Assembly: GCA_949298635.1 (NCBI GenBank)
Contig: CASFXG010000048.1
Span: forward strand, 1-32,769
Source of the DNA: an uncultured Coriobacteriaceae bacterium
Lineage (GTDB): Bacteria; Actinomycetota; Coriobacteriia; Coriobacteriales; Coriobacteriaceae
Direction of reading: 5' to 3'
Length of the DNA stretch: 32,769 bases
Below the pieces are notes generated by a model, which saw only the letters and a program-made list of their open reading frames with translations, searched no databases and was not told the DNA's origin. Numbering within the stretch: position 1 is the first letter of the stretch; each line of letters starts with the position of its first letter. A program made the position numbers and the translations under genes. Shown here one piece after another: positions 7,695-31,447 of the stretch.

Positions 7695-7729
7695 TGATCT
7701 TCCTTTCTGACTCATTTGGGTGACTCATT

Positions 7730-7813
7730 TGGGGACGGGGTCAAAACGTTGCACTTTGCGTCATAGGGGGACAGGCTCGCCTGCAGGATGGGTTGAAACG
7801 AACCCGTCCCCAA
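7730..7813. repeat. GGGGACGGG inverted element between uxuB and uxuA
   Basis: TTGGGGACGGGGTCAAAACG near 7729-7748 pairs with CGAACCCGTCCCCAA at 7799-7813. The right half, 7783-7813, closely matches 18340-18370 (GGATGGGTTGAAA then GTCCCCAA). On its left edge TGACTCATTTGGG is tandemly doubled (about 7707-7733). Confidence 0.65.
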
Positions 7814-7821
7814 TCATCCAC

Positions 7822-9444
7822 TTACGCGGTAAGGTACTTCTTGAGGGTCGCGCGCACAGCGCCGGGGCCTTCGTTGAGTTCGGCGAACATGGCCTCGACG
7901 CGCTCGCCCAGGCCGGCCTCGTACAGGTCGCAATCGAAGATCTCCTTGTTGGAGAGAATCGGACGCACGGCGTTGTGGATGGCCGTCGCATCGGCGACGC
8001 ACAGCTTGATGCCGCCCGCCGCGAGCTTGCCCTGCAGCTCCTCGAGCATCGGGTCGGGGCTCGGGGTGAAGTCCTCGCCAGCATCCGTCTTCGCCTCGAG
8101 GTAGCGCAGCCAGCCAGCAATCACAAGCGGGATGCACACCAGGGAATCCGTGCTCTTACCGGCGGAAAGATACGCATTGATGGTATGACCGTAGCGGATG
8201 GGCAGCTTCTGCGAGGTGTCCTGCGCGATGCGCTGCGGGGCGTCCGGCAGGCTGGGGTTGGGCAGACGATGCTCCACGAGCACGTCGATGAACTGCTTGG
8301 GGTCGATGACCTTGGGATCGACCACCACGGGCATCCCCTCGTCGTAACCCAGGCGCTTCACGAGCGCCACGAGCTCCGGGTCGCGCATCTCGTCGGCGAT
8401 CTTCGTGTAGCCCAGGAGGCACCCGTACACGGCAAGACCGGTGTGCAGCGGGTTCAGGCAGGTCGTAACCTTCATGGTATCGGCCTTGTCCACGGTCTCG
8501 CGATCCGTGAGGATCACGCCGCCCTCCTCGAGCGCCGGGCGCCCGTTGGGGAAGCTGTCCTCCACCACAAGGTAGTGCACCTGCTCGGTGTTCGCGAAGC
8601 CGGCGAAGTTCACCGGGCCGTTCGGGATGAGCGGCAGGTCGCTCCAGCCCTCGTCCGCAAGCGTCTTGGCAACGCCCTCGGCAGGGTTCGGGGTGATGCG
8701 GTCGATCATGGACCAGGGGAAGCTCACGCGGGCCTCGTCGCTCACATAGTCGACGAAACCCTGCTCCACATGGCCGGCCTTGAGCCAGCCCTCGACCACG
8801 GTAAGGACGGCGTCGCGGAAACGACGGCCGTTCTGCGAGAAGTTATCGGTCGAAACGAGCGCGATGGGAGCGGCACCGGCGTTATAGCGCGCAAGCAGGA
8901 GCGCCGCGACGATACCCATGGTGCTCGCGGCTGCCGCAGGGCCGTTCGCGATCTCGTCGGCCACGTAGCCGAAGAACTCGCCCGCAGCGTTCTTGAGGGC
9001 ATACCCCTTCTCCGTGATCGTGAAGGTGGCAAGCTGCAGCTCGTCGCTCTCGAAGTAGGCCTTGACCTGCTCGTAGTGCTCGGGGCGCTTGGGGTTGCAG
9101 AAGAACGACGCCGCGGTGCTCGCAAGGACGCGCTCGTCGAGCGTGCCGTCTTCATGCATGATGACCTGCAGGATGTTCTGATCGTAGGGAGCGTAGACCT
9201 CATCGATGGTGAAGGGGCTGAACGTCTCGACCACCACGAGGCCGCGATCGAGCTCGCCGGCGTCCATGACGTCCTGGGCGATCTCGACGTGGAATGCGCG
9301 GTAGAGGTTGCCGCCGCCGAAATGGATCCAGCGCGGCTGCTTCACGCCGGCCTCACGCGTGGCGTCGACGTCGAATGCGGGGAGCTTCACCCCCATTTCC
9401 GCAAGTTCGTCACGGGACTGCTGCCATTGCTTCAGCGAAACCAT
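7822..9444 (-). CDS. uxuB: Fructuronate reductase / mannitol dehydrogenase family
   Basis: 540 aa. The start is ATG 9442-9444 (MVSLKQWQQSRDELAEM), supported by GGGAG eight bases upstream; an ATG at 9459 would put that site inside the gene. UxuB reduces D-fructuronate to D-mannonate with NADH. Visible features are the N-terminal Rossmann region (PRWIHFGGGNLYRAFHVEIA), VETFSPF, STDNFSQNG, and the mannitol-dehydrogenase-family segment MKVTTCLNPLHTGLAVYGCL. The carboxyl part is longer than E. coli UxuB (486 aa). Tagaturonate reductase or mannitol dehydrogenase are alternatives by fold, but the uxuA/uxaC context favours fructuronate. It is first in the cluster, transcribed from the operator-bearing region at 9445-9896. 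Confidence 0.88.
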   Translation of the reverse strand: MVSLKQWQQSRDELAEMGVKLPAFDVDATREAGVKQPRWIHFGGGNLYRAFHVEIAQDVMDAGELDRGLVVVETFSPFTIDEVYAPYDQNILQVIMHEDGTLDERVLASTAASFFCNPKRPEHYEQVKAYFESDELQLATFTITEKGYALKNAAGEFFGYVADEIANGPAAAASTMGIVAALLLARYNAGAAPIALVSTDNFSQNGRRFRDAVLTVVEGWLKAGHVEQGFVDYVSDEARVSFPWSMIDRITPNPAEGVAKTLADEGWSDLPLIPNGPVNFAGFANTEQVHYLVVEDSFPNGRPALEEGGVILTDRETVDKADTMKVTTCLNPLHTGLAVYGCLLGYTKIADEMRDPELVALVKRLGYDEGMPVVVDPKVIDPKQFIDVLVEHRLPNPSLPDAPQRIAQDTSQKLPIRYGHTINAYLSAGKSTDSLVCIPLVIAGWLRYLEAKTDAGEDFTPSPDPMLEELQGKLAAGGIKLCVADATAIHNAVRPILSNKEIFDCDLYEAGLGERVEAMFAELNEGPGAVRATLKKYLTA

Positions 9445-16152: not shown

Positions 16153-16785
16153 ATGAAACAGCACATTGCCCCGCACACCCTTATTTGGATTGCAGGCATC
16201 GTGGCAATTCTTGCCTGCTCGCTCCTGCTGTTCATCGACCTTCCACACGGCATCGCAGAGCTGGCGCTTTCCTCGCCTGCCGCCAACCCCATCGTGATCG
16301 GCCCAGTCGTGCTCGATAATCCTCCGCTGCTCGCGTTCGAAGCGCTTCTCGCCATCGGCCTTGTGTGCCTGCCAGTCGCCGGGATCATCCGCCTGAACAA
16401 GCGAGACAAGGGCCAGGCGCCGAAGCGCTCCGTGCTACGCATCTTCGCCACGGTCACATCGTCTTGTCTGGTCTTCCTAGTGGGTGCGGCGATGCTGTTC
16501 CTCGCCTTCATCATGGGATTATCCTCACCATACATCCTGCCGGAAGCAAGCCCGTCGGGGGCACGCATCATCGTGGTCGATCGAGCGTTTTTGCTGGTCG
16601 GAAAGGGCGACGTTTACTACCTGCCGCCTTATTCCATCGCCACCAAGCATATCGGGTACTACCTTACGGACGACGGCTACAACCCTGTCGCGCACGGTGA
16701 CTACTCCCTCAAGTGGAACGGCGGGGAGCCCATCATATCGATTTCCGACTCTTCAGGCTATGGGTCGTATTACCCCGACCGGTGA
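16153..16785 (+). CDS. Predicted three-helix membrane protein of unknown function
   Basis: 210 aa. ATG 16153 is chosen because an open frame farther upstream lacks coding character and overlaps the pcrA start; GGGG lies a few bases upstream. Hydrophobic helices are near residues 8-28 (LIWIAGIVAILACSLLLFID), 56-78 (PLLAFEALLAIGLVCLPVAG) and 92-116 (ATVTSSCLVFLVGAAMLFLA). They are followed by a ~90-residue soluble tail (GARIIVVDRAFLLVGKGDVYYLP, DDGYNPVAHGDYSLKWNGGEP), presumably outside the membrane. I do not recognise a family. The tail has Tyr/Gly/Asp-rich beta-like character. It is a lone plus-strand gene between two minus-strand genes. Confidence 0.65.
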   Translation: MKQHIAPHTLIWIAGIVAILACSLLLFIDLPHGIAELALSSPAANPIVIGPVVLDNPPLLAFEALLAIGLVCLPVAGIIRLNKRDKGQAPKRSVLRIFATVTSSCLVFLVGAAMLFLAFIMGLSSPYILPEASPSGARIIVVDRAFLLVGKGDVYYLPPYSIATKHIGYYLTDDGYNPVAHGDYSLKWNGGEPIISISDSSGYGSYYPDR

Positions 16786-16866
16786 CATGTTGAAACCGCA
16801 TAGCTTTGCCGCTGGAGCTGCATGGCTGAACACGCTGATGGGGCGGGCGCGCCATGCATCCGCACA

Positions 16867-16900
16867 GCCTTGCGTGCCTGCGTGCCTGCGTGCCTGCGTG
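16867..16900. repeat. 8-bp tandem repeat GCGTGCCT
   Basis: About four head-to-tail copies of GCGTGCCT/TGCCTGCG precede the palindrome at 16900. Copy number could vary by slippage. It is non-coding in the ancestral gene arrangement. Confidence 0.6.
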
Positions 16901-16971
16901 CTAAAAATTGCCGAAACCGTCACGAAGAGGCTCTCGACATCTTCTTCGTGACGGTTTCTCCAATTTTTAGC
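16900..16971. terminator. 72-bp palindrome downstream of the GPH-like transporter
   Basis: GCTAAAAATTGCCGAAACCG pairs with the reverse complement ending CCAATTTTTAGC. The arms are 29 bp with two mismatches around a 14-base loop. It lies between convergent genes and can terminate both. The A5/T5 tracts are inside the stem. Confidence 0.65.
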
Positions 16972-17029
16972 GCGCATGAGCTCTCGGCGCGCAAGTTCAG
17001 GCGTCGCGCGACAGCGCGTGGCTCGCCGG

Positions 17030-18324
17030 CTATTTTTGCTTGTACGCCTCCTCACGGCGAGCCACCTCGTCGATGAGGATCGTATCGCCATGTTTTGCGG
17101 CAAGCACCGTGAGCAGCATGAACGCGCCCATGAGACCATGCCGGACAGGATGGGCGTTACCACCTGCGCTGCCATGGAAACGGTGTAGTAGTAGCCCGAG
17201 TAGCGGCCGACGCTGTTCGAATCGCAGAGCTCGAGCAGCATGGGATACACGCACAGGTCCACGCCGCCCAACGCTGCGCCCATGAAGAGGAAGACCACGT
17301 AGAAGAGCGGGTTGAAACCCGGCACGAGCCAGATGATCGCCGAACCCACCACCACGACGGCAGACGTGATGACGGCCATGACCTTGCGCCCGTACTTGAG
17401 CGAAAGGTTCGCGATGGGCACGTACGAGAGCAGACCGCCCGCGATGGTCACGATGTTGATGATCGCGTAGCTGCCGCCCGCCATGCCGAAAAACGCGTCC
17501 GCGTAGCGCGAGATGTTCGTCGTCATCGCGTTGTAGCTCATGTAGTAGAAGAACGTCGCCGCAAGAATCATGATAATCGACATGCGCACGGACGGGTCGG
17601 TGATGCGCTGCTTGCCGCCGGCCTCGGGCGAGTCGTCCGTGTCGATCTCCGCCTCTTCGATGCCCATCTCGAGGCTCTTCTCGTGCATGCGCTCCACAAG
17701 CTTAGGCTCGCGAACGCGCCAGAAGTAGAGAATCGCAGAGCCTAAGATGAACGCTGCCTGAAGACCGAAAAGCGGCAGGTAATCTGGATGCTCGACATCG
17801 GGAACCAGCAGTGTGATCGCCACGAGCATCACACCCGTGCCCGCGTAGCCCACGATCTTCTCGATAGAATCCGCCTTGGTACGCAGAGGGCGCGGTGTGA
17901 TATCGGCCACGATGGCCACGGTCATGGTGCGATACGCGCAGATCGCCACGAGTGTGAGCAAGATCATGGCGATGAGCAGCGGGAAGCTGCGCAGGTTGTT
18001 CGCCACGGCGATGAGCGGCACCGCGATGGCAGCCACCACGGAGCCCGCCATGATGAACGGCGTACGGCGCCCGAGCTTGCTCGCGCAACGGTCGCTCAAA
18101 ATGCCGAAGAGCGGCAGCAGGAACAGGCCGAAAACGTTGTCGAGTGCCATGACCACACCCGTCGTGGCGTTATCCAGGCCGAAGGTATCGGTGAGCATGA
18201 GCGGCACGATACCGTCGAATACCTGCCAGAAGCTGATCATGCCCATGAATGGCAGGGCCGCGAACGCCACGCTCGCGTAATCAAGCTTGCTCGCGGCCTT
18301 CACCGCTTGTTTGCTGGTAGCCAT
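17030..18324 (-). pseudogene. GPH-like major facilitator transporter, frameshifted near the C-terminus
   Basis: From ATG 18324 (GGGAAAGGATTGAT upstream) the protein reads MATSKQAVKAASKLDYASVA and shows about eleven helices. The MFS/GPH loop motifs include FGILSDRCASKLGRRTPFI ('D......GRR.P') and ATFFYYMSYNAMTTNISRYA. Homology in this frame stops at VVTPILSGMVS (about 17134). The natural C-terminus, GAFMLLTVLAAKHGDTILID to KQK, continues in another frame from 17131 to TAG at 17030. The offset equals a loss of one base mod 3, and about a dozen residues expected before 'HGD' appear to be missing, so a ~40-nt deletion fits best. Untruncated reading of frame one would add ~110 meaningless residues through the palindrome at 16900. 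It is probably co-transcribed with the M20 peptidase, and so might import peptides or a conjugate; this is inferred only. Confidence 0.8.
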
Positions 18325-18339
18325 ATCAATCCTTTCCCT

Positions 18340-18370
18340 GCGGGATGGGTTGAAAGAAGCGCGTCCCCAA
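18340..18370. repeat. GATGGGTTGAAA...GTCCCCAA element
   Basis: Shares about 25 of 31 bases with 7783-7813 (GGATGGGTTGAAA then GTCCCCAA). It lies in the 84-bp gap between the M20 stop and the transporter start, followed by ACCAACCCATTCCCCATCC, which pairs with GGGATGGGTTG. Confidence 0.6.
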
Positions 18371-18408
18371 CCAACCCATTCCCCATCCGGCGCTGGAGTT
18401 CCTTGCCT

Positions 18409-19946
18409 TTATCCGGCAAGCTGGTCGAGATTCGCCAAAAACGCCATGTAGAACTCGATGCCGCGCTTGTAGACGTCGACGCCGATGCGCTCGTTTTCCG
18501 CATGGATGAGCCCGCGCGCCTCACCCGAGTACTCGAAGCCGCAGAAACGGTACACGCGCTCGCAAATCTCGTTGAACTCACGTGAATCGGTGCAGGAATT
18601 CTGCACGTACGGAGCGAATCCTGCCTCGGGATACACGCCGGATACACGCCGCTCACGCAGCGGTGCAGGTAGTCGAAGGCGGCGTCGTTCTCGAACGGGC
18701 TAATGGGAGCCGGCTCCGTATACGGTACGGCGTCGTTAATCTCGACCGTCACATGGTCGGGCGAAACACCGCTCGCCACGCATTTCTCTGCTGCCAGGGC
18801 GCGGGCGCGCTCCACAGCATCGGCAACCGTCTCGAAGGGTGCCACGCGCACGTTGAAGTTCGCGCGCGCCACCGGCGGCAACACGTTGTGCGCATTCGAA
18901 CCCTCGAGCTGCGTGAGCGCGTACGTGGTGCGCAGCATCGCCGCCATCTCGCCGTCGGCGGCCATGATCTTCGCGACCACCGGACGGGTGAGCCATAGGT
19001 TCGAGAACACCAGACGGTAGAGCAGGCTGCTGCGACTCGCCAGCTCGGCAAGCGTGGCGTCGAGCGCCTCCGTAAAACATGGTATGCCTGGATGCGCAGC
19101 GATGTGCTCGCACACACGGGCGAGCAGCCGCGGGGCGTCGATATCCGTGGGAGTGGAGGCGTGGCCACCGTCGGCGTGCGCCGTGACGGTAAGGTCCACA
19201 TGCCCCTTCTCCGAGACGCCTACCATAGCAACCGGCACCTTCACGCCGAGCGGGGTATCGCCGGCAACGGCACCGCCCTCATCGAGCACCAGGTACGGAT
19301 GGATATCGTGGTCACGCAGCCAGGCAACGGCGTCGCGCGCAGCAGGCCCGCTCGTCTCCTCGGCATTCGACGAGAAGTACCACACATCGCGTGGCGGCGT
19401 GTACCCGGAGCGGATGAGATGTTCGGCAGCCTCGAAGAACGCGCCGATGATGCACTTCGTATCGAGCGATCCGCGTGCCCAGATCTCTCCGTCGACGATC
19501 TCCGCGCCGAATGGATCGTGCTCCCACACCTGCCCTTCGACCGGCACGACATCGTGATGCGCCATCATGACAATGGGGTCGAGCGCGGAATTCACGCCCG
19601 GCCAGCGCATGAGAATGCCAAACTCATCGATCATGTGGAGCTCGCACGCCGCGAAGGTAAGCGGGTACAAACGCCGGAGCGTGGGCACCCAGCGCGCGAA
19701 GTGTCTGCGATCAACCAGCGCGGAATCGTCGCGCGAAACGGTGGGGATACGCAGCAGCTCCTGGAACCGCCCCACTGCGTCGTCACCAGCGTGGTAGCCA
19801 TTTGCCCCAAGCGGCGCACCATCTGGCCGCGAGGGCTTCATCTTCGCGGCGCGCACCGCGCAGACCGCTCCCACCGCCCCAAGCGCAGACCCGGCAGCAA
19901 GTGCCGCAGCGCCGCCTAATACCTTGCAGATCGTCTTAGCATGCAT
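18409..19946 (-). pseudogene. M20-family metallopeptidase (carboxypeptidase S-like), broken by an 11-bp tandem duplication
   Basis: ATG 19946 follows AAGGAGG. An N-terminal membrane anchor (about 5-30, VLGGAAALAAGSALGAVGAV) is followed by the M20 dizinc catalytic core: MMAHHDVVPVEG, GRGSLD-type ARGSLDTKC and the Glu-Glu pair in NAEETSGPAA. The dimerisation/lid domain follows, with SEKGHVDLTV. At about 18633-18654 the sequence GGCGTGTATCC (minus strand) occurs twice in tandem, adding 11 bases. Removing one copy joins LHRCVSGVYP directly to EAGFAPYVQNSCTDSREF and restores the frame to TAA at 18409. The lost C-terminus carries the last zinc-ligand region (RGLIHAENER). Family members hydrolyse N-acyl amino acids or dipeptides; the substrate is unknown. 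Confidence 0.88.
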
Positions 19947-21176: not shown

Positions 21177-21361
21177 GGTGCCTCCCATACGCTTTGCCAG
21201 ATGCCATTATCGACCAGAAAAACGTACGCACACGGAGAAAGCCGCATCGTTCACAGAATACTTCAACCTCTTCGCGCGCAACGGGGTATAACCGACGCAA
21301 CCAAGGGCGTTCCGCACGGTGAGCGCCCGTCACAGTTGCATCCAACGCAAGGAGGCACACG

Positions 21362-21802
21362 ATGATTCAAGAAGGCTATTCCAAGGTATTCGTTGCACTC
21401 GATGGCACCGACCAGCAGGACTTTGTGCTCGCGCGCGCCATCAAGGTCGCCGCGAACAACGGGGCGAAGCTCTACATTGGGCACGTCATCGACTCGACGG
21501 CGCTCGAATCTGCGGGCGCATACCCCGTCGACCTCATCAACGGGCTCGAGACGGCATTCCGCGACTCCATCGCCCCGGCGGTCGAGGAGGCCAAGGCGAA
21601 CCCCGATATCGCGGATGTGGAGATTATCATCCGCGCCGGCCGCATCCGTGAGACGCTCAAGGATGAGATGCTCGATGTCATTCAGCCCGATCTGGTGATG
21701 TGCGGCGCCCGTGGCCTCTCTTCCATCAAGTACGCGCTCCTCGGGTCGATCTCCACGTTCCTGCTGCGCAGTACAGACTGCGATATCTTGGTCGTGAAGT
21801 AG
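21362..21802 (+). CDS. Universal stress protein (UspA family)
   Basis: 146 aa. ATG 21362 follows AAGGAGG. It is a single Usp domain: N-terminal strand SKVFVALDGTDQQDFVLARA, the acidic Asp at the ATP site (VALDGT), HVIDSTAL, and the C-terminal nucleotide-binding signature GARGLSSIKYALLGSISTFL followed by DCDILVVK. The pattern G-x2-G-x9-G-S/T is retained in variant form, so ATP binding is likely. Usp proteins modulate stress and anaerobic survival; no specific partner is evident. It is divergent from uppP with a TATAAC (21287-21292) that could be its -10 element, and followed by a compound hairpin terminator. Confidence 0.9.
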   Translation: MIQEGYSKVFVALDGTDQQDFVLARAIKVAANNGAKLYIGHVIDSTALESAGAYPVDLINGLETAFRDSIAPAVEEAKANPDIADVEIIIRAGRIRETLKDEMLDVIQPDLVMCGARGLSSIKYALLGSISTFLLRSTDCDILVVK

Positions 21803-21815
21803 GGGCGCTCCATCC

Positions 21816-21922
21816 GGGCTGAGGGCATTCCCGTCGTACTTCAAACAGTCCTGCGCAAGACGGAGGCGCCACTGGCGCCTCCTTTGCGTGCGGAACTCGT
21901 ATGACGGGAATGCCCTCAGCCC
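21816..21922 (+). terminator. Compound terminator: GGAGGCGCC hairpin nested in a 24-bp inverted repeat
   Basis: The inner stem GGAGGCGCC (21862-21870) and GGCGCCTCC (21874-21882) followed by TTTG is the likely usp terminator. It is enclosed by outer arms 21816-21839 and 21899-21922 (GGGCTGAGGGCATTCCCGTC core), with one mismatch in 24. The outer arms are far larger than a terminator needs and resemble an inserted element. Confidence 0.7.
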
Positions 21923-21961
21923 TGCGCTTACCTACTTGCACGAGCGGGCGGAGGGGAACGG

Positions 21962-28699: not shown

Positions 28700-28898
28700 A
28701 AGATGCCGGAGCCCATTCGCATCGAAGCCCTCTCGGCTCACGCAGAGAGAGCACACGACGGGCTGCATGCAAACGGGTTCCGCTCTGAACTACCGATCCT
28801 TGCGGGCGGTTGGAAGCGACTCGCCGACCGCCCGCCTACATCGCCCCCCTTTTCCGAGGAGCCCCCAGGCGCGAACCTGGGGGCTTCTTCGTTTTTTT
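28700..28898 (+). ncRNA. Possible non-coding transcript ending in a strong terminator
   Basis: The plus strand carries a classical intrinsic terminator at 28860-28898: AGCCCCCAGG and CCTGGGGGCT, a 6-base loop, then a T-rich tract ending in T7. No plus-strand gene precedes it. Just before it is a 12-bp GC-rich stem (28802-28813 with 28824-28835, loop AAGCGACTCG). A small open frame (28702 on) runs straight through the terminator and has no ribosome site, so coding is doubtful. I could not match it to SRP RNA, 6S, tmRNA or RNase P. The 5' end is unknown. Confidence 0.4.
28860..28898 (+). terminator. Strong intrinsic terminator upstream of gluQRS
   Basis: A 10-bp perfect stem (28860-28869 with 28876-28885), then TCTTCGTTTTTTT. 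Its orientation shows that something is transcribed on the plus strand from further left. Confidence 0.85.
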
Positions 28899-28955
28899 GC
28901 CTGAAGCCGCGGGACAACGCACCAGGGCGTGTTTTAGGTTCCGCCGCGGTTCAAC

Positions 28956-28961
28956 TATACT
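28956..28961 (+). promoter_or_regulatory. Candidate -10 element placing gluQRS on a leaderless mRNA
   Basis: TATACT ends seven bases before the gluQRS ATG at 28969, the distance at which transcription would begin on or next to the A of ATG. No ribosome-binding site lies in those seven bases (TTCGGGC). A weak -35 (TTTAGG, 28933-28938) is 17 bases upstream. Confidence 0.5.
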
Positions 28962-28968
28962 TTCGGGC

Positions 28969-29961
28969 ATGAACACCACCCGGCACACACCTCAAAGCGC
29001 TCATGCAGGCGAAGCTCTACGCGTCGTGGGGCGCTTCGCCCCCACGCCGTCGGGTCGCATGCACCTCGGCAATGTGTACGCCTCACTCGTGGCATGGCTC
29101 TCCGCGCGAAGCCAGGGCGGAAGTGTGACACTGCGCGTCGAAGACCTCGATCCGCGCACCCAGTCCGGCCCGTGGACGGAGCTCTTGCTCGACGACCTGC
29201 GCTGGCTCGGACTCGAGTGGGACGGAGACCCCGTCTACCAGCACGAGCGCGTCGATCTCTACCGAGCTGCCGTCGAGAGGCTCGAGGCAGCCGGGCTCAC
29301 CTACCCATGCTTCTGCACGCGCGCCGAACTTCATGCCGCGAGCGCGCCGCATGCAAGCGACGGGACGCCCGTTTATACCGGCACATGCCGCGGCCTCACA
29401 CCCGAAGAGATTGCCGAGCGCCGCGCGACGCGCCTGCCAGCGCTTCGACTGCGCGTGCCCGACAGCGACGATCCCCGCGGCACCATCGTGTTCGAAGACC
29501 GCGTATACGGGTCGCAGCGTCAGGTGCTTGCACAGGAGTGCGGCGACTTCCTCGTGCGGCGCAGCGACGGGGTGTTCGCGTACCAGCTAGCAGTGGTAGT
29601 CGACGATGCCGCTACGGGCGTCACGGAGGTCGTGCGCGGGTGCGACCTCATGTCGTCGACGCCGCGGCAGATCTACCTTGAGCAGCTGCTCGGCCTGCCG
29701 GAGCCCGCCTACGCCCACATCCCGCTGCTCCTCGCGCCCGACGGGCGGCGCCTTGCCAAGCGTGATCGCGACCTGGATATGGGCGAGCTCAGGACACGCT
29801 TCGGTACGCCGGCGGCACTCCTAGGTTGGCTCGCCGGAATCGCAGGCCTCGCGCCCGATACCGCACCGCGTACCGCCGAGCAGCTTGCCGAGACGTTCTC
29901 TTGGGAGACCATGCGCAAGCACCGGGAGAACATGGTCATCACCGCCGACATGAGCATCTGA
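28969..29961 (+). CDS. gluQ: Glutamyl-Q tRNA(Asp) synthetase
   Basis: 330 aa from ATG 28969. It is a shortened glutamyl-tRNA synthetase catalytic core lacking the anticodon-binding domain; the family attaches glutamate to queuosine at position 34 of tRNA-Asp. Class I motifs are GRFAPTPSGRMHLGNVYASL (HIGH-type, 21-40) and RRLAKRDRDLD (KMSKS-like). The zinc site C114-x-C116...Y136-x3-C140 (YPCFCTR then VYTGTCRG) is the GluQRS form. VTEVVRGCDLMSSTPRQIYL is also diagnostic. Discriminating GluRS would be ~470 aa or more, so length supports the call. No DksA partner is adjacent. Transcription appears leaderless. Confidence 0.93.
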   Translation: MNTTRHTPQSAHAGEALRVVGRFAPTPSGRMHLGNVYASLVAWLSARSQGGSVTLRVEDLDPRTQSGPWTELLLDDLRWLGLEWDGDPVYQHERVDLYRAAVERLEAAGLTYPCFCTRAELHAASAPHASDGTPVYTGTCRGLTPEEIAERRATRLPALRLRVPDSDDPRGTIVFEDRVYGSQRQVLAQECGDFLVRRSDGVFAYQLAVVVDDAATGVTEVVRGCDLMSSTPRQIYLEQLLGLPEPAYAHIPLLLAPDGRRLAKRDRDLDMGELRTRFGTPAALLGWLAGIAGLAPDTAPRTAEQLAETFSWETMRKHRENMVITADMSI

Positions 29962-30004
29962 CACCAGCCGCAGCCTTCACTTCAGCAAAGACGTGAGCAT
30001 CTAT

Positions 30005-30122
30005 GTACCGGGCAGATATTCTCGCTCTTTTTGGGTTGGGATGCAGATGTATCCGTTTAGGTGCGCTTTAACGGAATAATCTGCATCGCAAACGCTTAAG
30101 GTGAGAATCTGAGTCCCGGACG
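30005..30122. repeat. ~118-bp imperfect palindrome upstream of tRNA-Ser
   Basis: Outer arms GTACCGGGCAGATATTCTCG (30005-30024) and GGTGAGAATCTGAGTCCCGG (30100-30119) pair imperfectly. Inner arms GATGCAGATGTATCCGTTTA (30040-30059) and TTTAACGGAATAATCTGCAT (30067 on) pair well, with three or four mismatches in ~20. The centre is a short loop. It resembles neither the GGGGAC nor the CCCCAGGGG families. The 258-bp gap contains no gene. Confidence 0.6.
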
Positions 30123-30219
30123 GAATTTCTCCAAAAACGAAGACTGAATAAAATTACGGCAATTTTAGTTCGCCCTTGTAACACGTCCGGTGGGTACGCT
30201 AATATTGTTAGCTGCTAAC

Positions 30220-30302
30220 GGAGAGCTGACCGAGAGGCCGAAGGTGCTCGCCTGCTAAGCGAGTATTCCCCACAAGGGAATCTGGGGCCCAGCTCTCCGC
30301 CA
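30220..30302 (+). tRNA. tRNA-Ser(GCU) lacking the T-loop
   Basis: Acceptor GGAGAGC (30220-30226) pairs with GCTCTCC (30292-30298), then discriminator G and encoded CCA (30300-30302). The D-arm, the anticodon stem CTCGC/GCGAG with loop CTGCTAA (anticodon GCT, 30254-30256) and a long serine-type variable arm (ATTCCC/GGGAAT) are all normal. The T-arm is not. Where TGGGG-TTCGAAT-CCCCA is expected there is only TGGGGCCCA, about 8 nt short, making the gene 83 instead of ~91 nt. As read, it could not form the T-loop and would be inactive. The prophage begins to its right, so it may be the attachment site. Confidence 0.85.
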
Positions 30303-30313
30303 GCCGAAAATTT

Positions 30314-30356
30314 CGCCATCTGGGTTATTGCAGCTCAGGTGGCGTTTTCTTTTTTC
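30314..30356 (+). terminator. Terminator of tRNA-Ser
   Basis: CGCCATCTG pairs with CAGGTGGCG (one wobble), followed by TTTTCTTTTTT. Orientation fits tRNA-Ser transcription. Confidence 0.8.
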
Positions 30357-30493
30357 GTATCTCCTTCTAACTCCCTCTAATTTCTGCGAAAAACATGCGA
30401 TTCGAGGGGGCAAATGTTAAAAAATGCGAATGGCCGATGGCGCGTTTCCGCAGGTATACAAAGGCGGTAAAACGGGCGCATGCGAACGCAAAG

Positions 30494-30523
30494 AACCCCT
30501 CCCCGCCGAGGCGGAGAGGGGCT
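30494..30523 (-). terminator. Terminator of the prophage lysis operon
   Basis: CCCCTCCCCGCC and GGCGGAGAGGGG form a GC-rich hairpin; on minus it is followed by TTCTTTG. It lies 22 bases past the endolysin stop. The rest of 30357-30493 is A/T-richer, without a gene. Confidence 0.65.
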
Positions 30524-30544: not shown

Positions 30545-31447
30545 TTAGAACTTGCCGGAATTAAGCGCCTTCTGCATCGCCTTGACGGTGAGGCTCTCGT
30601 AGTCGAGCTTGCCGTCGAGGACCTTCGCGCCGCTGCCCTTCTTCATATAGTAGGCGATCAGCTTGTTGATGGTCTCCTCGCCGAGGATGCCGTCAACCTT
30701 CGCGCCGGTCTTCTTCTGAAGCAGCGCGATGGTCTGCGACCCCTCGCCATATCCGCTCTGGAGCCATTCCCAGCCGTCGGTGCAGCCGGGGCAGGACCCC
30801 TTCCAATACTTGTTCTGGCGGCTGATGATGCCGTCCTTGAAGGGGGCTCCGAGAACCTGCTGTAGGCGCAAGGACGTCTTCGGCCCCCACAGGCCGTCGA
30901 CATCGAGCACGGGCTCCTCGACCTCCGGCTCGTCGGGAACCTCGGCGCCGGTCATCTTGTCGTACCAGTACTGTGCGCGCTTGATGTACGCGTCCTTCTG
31001 GCTGCCGTAGATCTGGCCGGGGCAGGACGTAGCTGAGAAGTGCTTGTGCGGGAACACGACGTTGAGCCACGTCGGTCGGCCGAGGCCGTAGTACTTGCAG
31101 ACCGCGGCCACGAGGTGCGCGCCGTTGTCGAGCGCCGCCTCCGTGATCGTGCCGTCCTTGAGGTTGGCGTGCTCGATGCCGATCGACTTGCAGTTGGCCA
31201 CCCAGTCGCCCGCGTGCCAGGCGGTGTTGCCGTCCCACACGAGCTGGCCGATGTCGCCGTCGTCCTCAACCTGGTAGTGCGCGGACGCCTCGCGCGCCTG
31301 CCACACCGAGTAGCAGCCGTTTATCGTGAGGTTGCCGGCGTTGTAATGCACGACGACGAACTCGACCTTGTATCCGCCCCTGCCCTTGGTGTAGTGCTTT
31401 GTGAGGAGCTTGTTCACGTCGGCTTCGAGCTTCTCCCAGTCCTTCAT
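30545..31447 (-). CDS. Phage endolysin, N-acetylmuramoyl-L-alanine amidase
   Basis: 300 aa. ATG 31445-31447 overlaps the stop of the preceding 44-aa frame (ATGA). The N-terminal Amidase_2 domain (~25-165) has zinc ligands His34 (VVVHYNAG), His134/136 (FPHKHFSATSCPG) and Cys142, with SIGIEHAN giving the structural Glu. It cuts the bond between muramic acid and L-Ala. The C-terminus (180-300) has repeated elements, LDVDGLWGPKTSLRLQQVL and KVDGILGEETINKLIAYYM, resembling peptidoglycan/cell-wall binding repeats. No signal peptide, so export depends on the holin. It is the distal gene of the lysis cassette. Confidence 0.9.
   Translation of the reverse strand: MKDWEKLEADVNKLLTKHYTKGRGGYKVEFVVVHYNAGNLTINGCYSVWQAREASAHYQVEDDGDIGQLVWDGNTAWHAGDWVANCKSIGIEHANLKDGTITEAALDNGAHLVAAVCKYYGLGRPTWLNVVFPHKHFSATSCPGQIYGSQKDAYIKRAQYWYDKMTGAEVPDEPEVEEPVLDVDGLWGPKTSLRLQQVLGAPFKDGIISRQNKYWKGSCPGCTDGWEWLQSGYGEGSQTIALLQKKTGAKVDGILGEETINKLIAYYMKKGSGAKVLDGKLDYESLTVKAMQKALNSGKF

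Follow-up and report, generated by a model that had tools for sequence, protein, structure and literature searches.

Genomic islands that integrate into tRNA genes carry an attP that restores the tDNA, and a displaced tDNA fragment is found at the far end of the element; their crossovers fall in the anticodon loop, the T-loop or the T/acceptor junction (passages of PMC4383910 and PMC8371274). The locus described here shares with Islander-type islands and prophages a tRNA gene at one end, a 3' tDNA fragment and an integrase at the other, and host neighbours that are contiguous in relatives. It differs from such islands in two ways: the gene expected to be restored is eight bases short as assembled, and the ends sit on two contigs that we infer to be linked. 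Anomalous prokaryotic tRNA genes that arise from fragments or from reference errors (PMC9897764) are similar in that a poorly scoring gene occurs in one genome and tRNA fragments occur in mobile elements, and an error in the reference sequence was also considered there where an essential isotype lacked one base. Here, in contrast to those cases, the T-arm lacks eight bases, and further events of this kind occur in the same draft. We propose, from comparison with related genomes, that the eight-base gap is probably a small assembly error in the tRNA-Ser(GCU) gene.

The tRNA-Ser(GCU) gene as assembled

The window, meaning the whole 32,769-bp stretch of DNA that was analysed, is the entire contig C48 of a draft genome (G000) of 83 contigs and 1.93 Mb, estimated to be 86.3% complete. 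The features that bear on the tRNA gene are the following.

28810-29961, + strand: host gene with a tRNA-synt_1c domain (PF00749, 1.3e-47), upstream of the tRNA; same neighbour in relatives G002 and G004
30220-30302, + strand: tRNA-Ser(GCU) gene (GGAGAGC...GCCA), eight bases short in the T-arm; the gene of relatives is eight bases longer
30283-30291, + strand: collapsed T-arm TGGGGCCCA, with eight bases absent between 30287 and 30288
30288-30308, + strand: part of the attachment core, likely attL side; 21 bases, 100% identical to C44:7869-7889
30314-30355, + strand: terminator-like hairpin and T-run on the phage side after the core, read by eye
30545-31447, - strand: phage endolysin gene (Amidase_2; PF01510, 9.7e-25; phrog_14048, 2e-59) inside the element

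From 30220 to 30302 the gene reads GGAGAGCTGACCGAGAGGCCGAAGG...CTGCTAA...TATTCCCCACAAGGGAATC-TGGGGCCCA-GCTCTCC-GCCA. An earlier note on this DNA had described a tRNA-Ser(GCU) with normal arms that lacks a T-loop of about eight bases near 30282-30292, and this description was correct in each part: the short T-arm falls inside that interval, eight bases are missing relative to the full T-arm of relatives, and the acceptor, D, anticodon and variable arms are complete, with a 3' end of GCCA. The gap corresponds almost exactly to the T-loop, as seven bases plus one. ARAGORN called no tRNA anywhere in the window, and Rfam gave no tRNA at the gathering threshold in the window and none at E<=10 in 30000-30500.

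The complete T-arm is the rule among relatives. The gene was searched in 40 genomes (G000 and 39 relatives) and matched in 35 of the 39, four relatives giving no match; the T-arm is complete in all 29 loci that were fetched from these 35 relatives. When named loci in genome_contigs were picked by the exact 5' 44 bases of the gene, which gave at least 120 loci, the T-loop was present in 118 of 120 among the matches listed, and the other two run into a contig end. The deleted string TCTGGGGCCCAGCTCTCCGCCA occurs in one of 395 genomes of the order, namely G000.

Used as a DNA query against the draft, the gene matched itself and, beyond that, just a 21-base piece of contig C44; each of four same-genus relatives has a single match. 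The earlier note had offered a second copy as one option; the whole-genome tRNA check found no second Ser-GCU gene in the 1.93 Mb of a draft only 86.3% complete, and none of its 46 Rfam tRNA matches (two of them identified by eye) is a Ser-GCU. AGY codons need this tRNA-Ser isotype. They account for 63 of the serine codons in six window ORFs (165 in all), so the cell would require a functional tRNA for them.

The likely prophage edge

The other end of the element is probably represented on contig C44 of the draft.

C44:6672-7844: tyrosine integrase gene (PF00589, 4.1e-18; phrog_1, 1.9e-55)
C44:7859-7889: intact 31-bp copy of the core, GGTTCGAATCCCCAGCTCTCCGCCAGCCGAA, T-loop included; a displaced 3' tDNA fragment in the same orientation as the gene
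C44:8121-10463: host gene after the core; it lies downstream of tRNA-Ser(GCU) in G002 and G004, about 0.1 kb away in G002

The tRNA-Ser(GCU) gene is likely the integration site of a prophage. Host collinearity with G002 and G004 spans the upstream gene and stops at 30306/30308, and both flanking host genes are contiguous in these uninserted relatives (G002 C90, G004 C2). On this evidence attL is probably in the window and attR on C44; the simplest view is that both belong to one prophage, whose two contigs we infer to be joined. The earlier note had placed the gene at a prophage edge and proposed a search for the same 3' segment at the far end. Both points are supported: collinearity ends at the gene with the endolysin beyond it, and C44 carries integrase, host gene and the segment itself, as an intact 31-bp core. 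An intact regenerated tRNA gene is expected at attL; there the T-loop is absent as assembled.

Neither the deleted junction, the phage-side stretch nor the intact core had any match in viral_contigs, a collection that may omit records near the window's genome, and no relative of the integrase was confirmed in it. The attP sequence could therefore not be taken from a free phage. Near both ends of the element (window 30419-30464 and C44 ~7805-7845) there is a similar stretch (GTTAA...AATGCGAATGG...GTTTCCGCAGGT), possibly an integrase arm site or a remnant of the integrase gene.

Other losses and doublings in the same draft

Contradictions of the same kind between the draft and its relatives were found elsewhere in the assembly, at five further tRNA genes and two protein genes.

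Further affected tRNA loci of G000: C43:597-651, C78:3896-3978, C27:24489-24565, the tRNA-Ala of C15 and the tRNA-His of C53
Window 18629-18651: exact 11-bp tandem doubling in ORF 18300-19946 (- strand); frame shifted relative to G004; absent in G002, G003, G004 and G006
Window 17134-17135: loss of 40 bp in ORF 16753-18324 (- strand); frame shifted relative to G004; the 40 bp are present in G002, G003 and G004, and G006 did not align at this site

Six of the 47 tRNA genes of the draft are odd relative to relatives, the other 41 being covered only by ARAGORN calls or the tandem scan. In four of the six the change affects the T-arm or the 3' portion of the gene: Ser-GCU lacks 8 bases, Thr-GGU 24 and Ser-CGA 7, and one of two Pro-CGG genes has 3 extra. 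In the alignments of the last three, some rows were read by eye as reverse complements (G003 for Thr; G001, G002, G004 and G005 for Ser-CGA; G001 for Pro). In the remaining two, an exact doubling of 55 bases of its own 3' part follows the Ala-TGC gene on C15, and a 37-base doubling precedes the His tRNA gene on C53; both doublings are absent in G002 and G004. A Thr(CGT)-like gene with an unusual T-arm (G000 C17:20669-20740) was dropped as an odd tRNA, as G002, a second species, has it at 99% identity over 81 bases (C35:29203-29274).

An initial screen for frameshifts flagged 10 rows, two of which were the 11-bp doubling, and a stricter screen was used instead. This found two events in the 12.7 kb of the window matched to G004 and none in the 6.5 kb matched to G002. 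It found none in 16.1 and 12.4 kb of C23 (a 20-kb stretch), a result that we count against an assembly origin of the gap. On C44, the 3.7 kb compared had no event and the 8.5 kb compared had a single flag, near 19181-19237, which proved to lie outside any matched gene and was dropped; this, too, we count against an assembly origin. Four control comparisons between G002 and G004 (9.8 to 13.2 kb) gave no event, and with G000 as reference one further event was flagged, in window ORF 21265-21931 relative to G002. The two frame-shifted genes of the window could be real pseudogenes.

Bulk counts do not clearly set the draft apart. Rfam scores below 45 bits were obtained for 2 of 46 tRNAs in G000, 2 of 50 in G002 and 0 of 48 in G004, the latter two genomes being searched at a looser E-value. 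Exact tandem repeats with a unit of 9 or more number 10 in 132 kb of the draft and 12 in 247 kb of relatives' loci; with a unit of 10 or more, there are 6 in 132 kb of the draft and 31 in 879 kb of named loci. Because these counts show no clear excess, only events contradicted by aligned relatives were used in the argument.

Origin of the eight-base gap

An assembly error is the likely source of the gap: elsewhere in this draft, too, short stretches are lost or doubled in conflict with its relatives, five of these cases being at other tRNA genes. We hypothesize the following course of events. The phage would have inserted itself through recombination by its tyrosine integrase within the 3' part of the tRNA gene, and integration would have left the regenerated gene at attL, in the window, and the displaced 3' fragment at attR, on C44. 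Contig ends are likely to fall in tRNA genes, whose sequences hardly differ between species; the 3' part of this one is moreover repeated on C44, where 19 of its bases occur twice more (at 7869 and 8061). Contig ends would probably have come to lie in this repeated and conserved 3' part and been joined at the wrong length, such that some genes lost bases and others kept the overlapping ends in doubled form. The cell itself would have a normal tRNA-Ser(GCU). Counting against this course of events, flanking microhomology is present at several of the other events and absent at the T-arm gap, and the gap coincides almost exactly with the T-loop, which could be the overlap region of a recombinase. 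Among the options that the earlier note had offered, that of a loop dropped in assembly is the best supported, on the strength of those other losses and doublings. The cause that the note had named for it, a palindrome, is probably not the right one; no palindrome lies at the 40-bp loss, at the 11-bp doubling or at the doublings of the Ala and His loci, and palindromes as a cause of the losses were set aside.

The strongest alternative, which we nevertheless consider unlikely, is that the chromosome truly lost the T-loop once the phage had integrated, for instance when strand exchange or repair failed at attL, with a second Ser-GCU gene lying in the missing 14% of the draft or with a mixed population having been sequenced. 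The gene is the likely target of the integrase, the loss of seven bases plus one is about the size of a tyrosine-recombinase overlap, and parts of PMC8371274 and PMC4383910 place crossovers and overlaps in tRNA loops. The incompleteness of the draft leaves room for a second gene; however, no such copy was found in the draft, and the four same-genus relatives, with one match each, argue against it. In addition, the draft's other losses and doublings include protein genes and are not tied to any integration site that was found. The narrower proposal that the phage integrase itself made the loss, a failed strand exchange in the T-loop having removed the overlap region from attL, is more doubtful still.

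It is very improbable that the core of the phage attP itself came without a T-loop, so that lysogeny breaks the tRNA. The position of the gene at the likely attL end fits this idea, but the integrase-side end has the full 31-bp core. Exchange within the T-loop needs attB and attP to match there, and as attR has the T-loop, it follows that the T-loop was present; exchange to the right of the T-loop means that attL kept the host's own. In either position attL would be complete as well, and to the left of the T-loop the phage arm has nothing in common with the tRNA but GG, which would be too few bases for an overlap. Judging from the C44 core and the window sequence, attL should have had a T-loop at integration. 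The gene may well be at attL, as the suggestion of a phage-derived attachment remnant had it, but with the core at C44:7859-7889 intact the phage core is probably not the source of the defect.

That the gene encodes a tRNA working without a T-loop, as in nematode mitochondria, where T-armless tRNAs exist (PMC4013460) and likewise could not form a normal T-arm, can scarcely be credited even though the other arms and GCCA are intact: the mitochondrial cases accompany adapted partner proteins (PMC12221289), whereas here one gene in one bacterial draft is concerned, its form occurs in a single genome among 395 of the order, and the relatives read retain the arm.

Repeats in the draft and its relatives

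One GC-rich repeat, about 135 bp long, opens with an inverted T-arm-like string. In 35 of the 37 loci examined (91 matches listed), a tRNA or tmRNA gene is found 35-240 bp upstream of it on the same strand. Of the two exceptions, one copy is next to the displaced Ser-GCU fragment of C44, and the other belongs to G002 and has no tRNA close by. Although the query contains the T-arm-like string, the matches extend well past it. Copies were recorded at the following places.

G000: C23:65937-66071 (L030:1618-1752), C44:7943-8062, C38, C15, C72, C78 and C27:11589
Loci L275-L311

A second copy of the 3' end of the same tRNA follows the repeat in five of the seven loci printed. Among the matches listed, the repeat is present in at least 25 of 37 genomes of the family and in 0 of 23 outside it; these counts are lower bounds, the first look having scored at most 14 candidates per genome. 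The repeat resembles a short element that targets tRNA T-loops. A literature search for repeats of this kind turned up one paper, about flowering plants.

Two further repeats were seen. The string TGACTCATTTGGG is directly doubled, as 13 bp, at window 7708-7733 near the start of ORF 7720, and may be an interspersed repeat since its complement is doubled on another contig (L248:17772). An interspersed repeat of about 35 bp, matching L246:14062-14097, occurs in many copies, on many contigs of G002 and G000 and in both orientations.

Implications

Taken as a biological claim, the missing T-loop would mean that the cell had lost a tRNA it needs. If the loss were real and the work of the phage integrase, integration or excision could destroy the host's only AGY-decoding serine tRNA, and the tRNA T-loops of this lineage, where a repeat family is found too, would be general hot spots of recombination. 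If the gap is instead an error of assembly, as we think probable, the lesson is one of caution. A tRNA gene used as an attachment site occurs in repeated form within its genome and is nearly the same from species to species, so drafts may show such genes as damaged when they are intact in the cell. What should be checked in such cases is whether the core at attR is intact and whether unrelated indels occur in the same draft.
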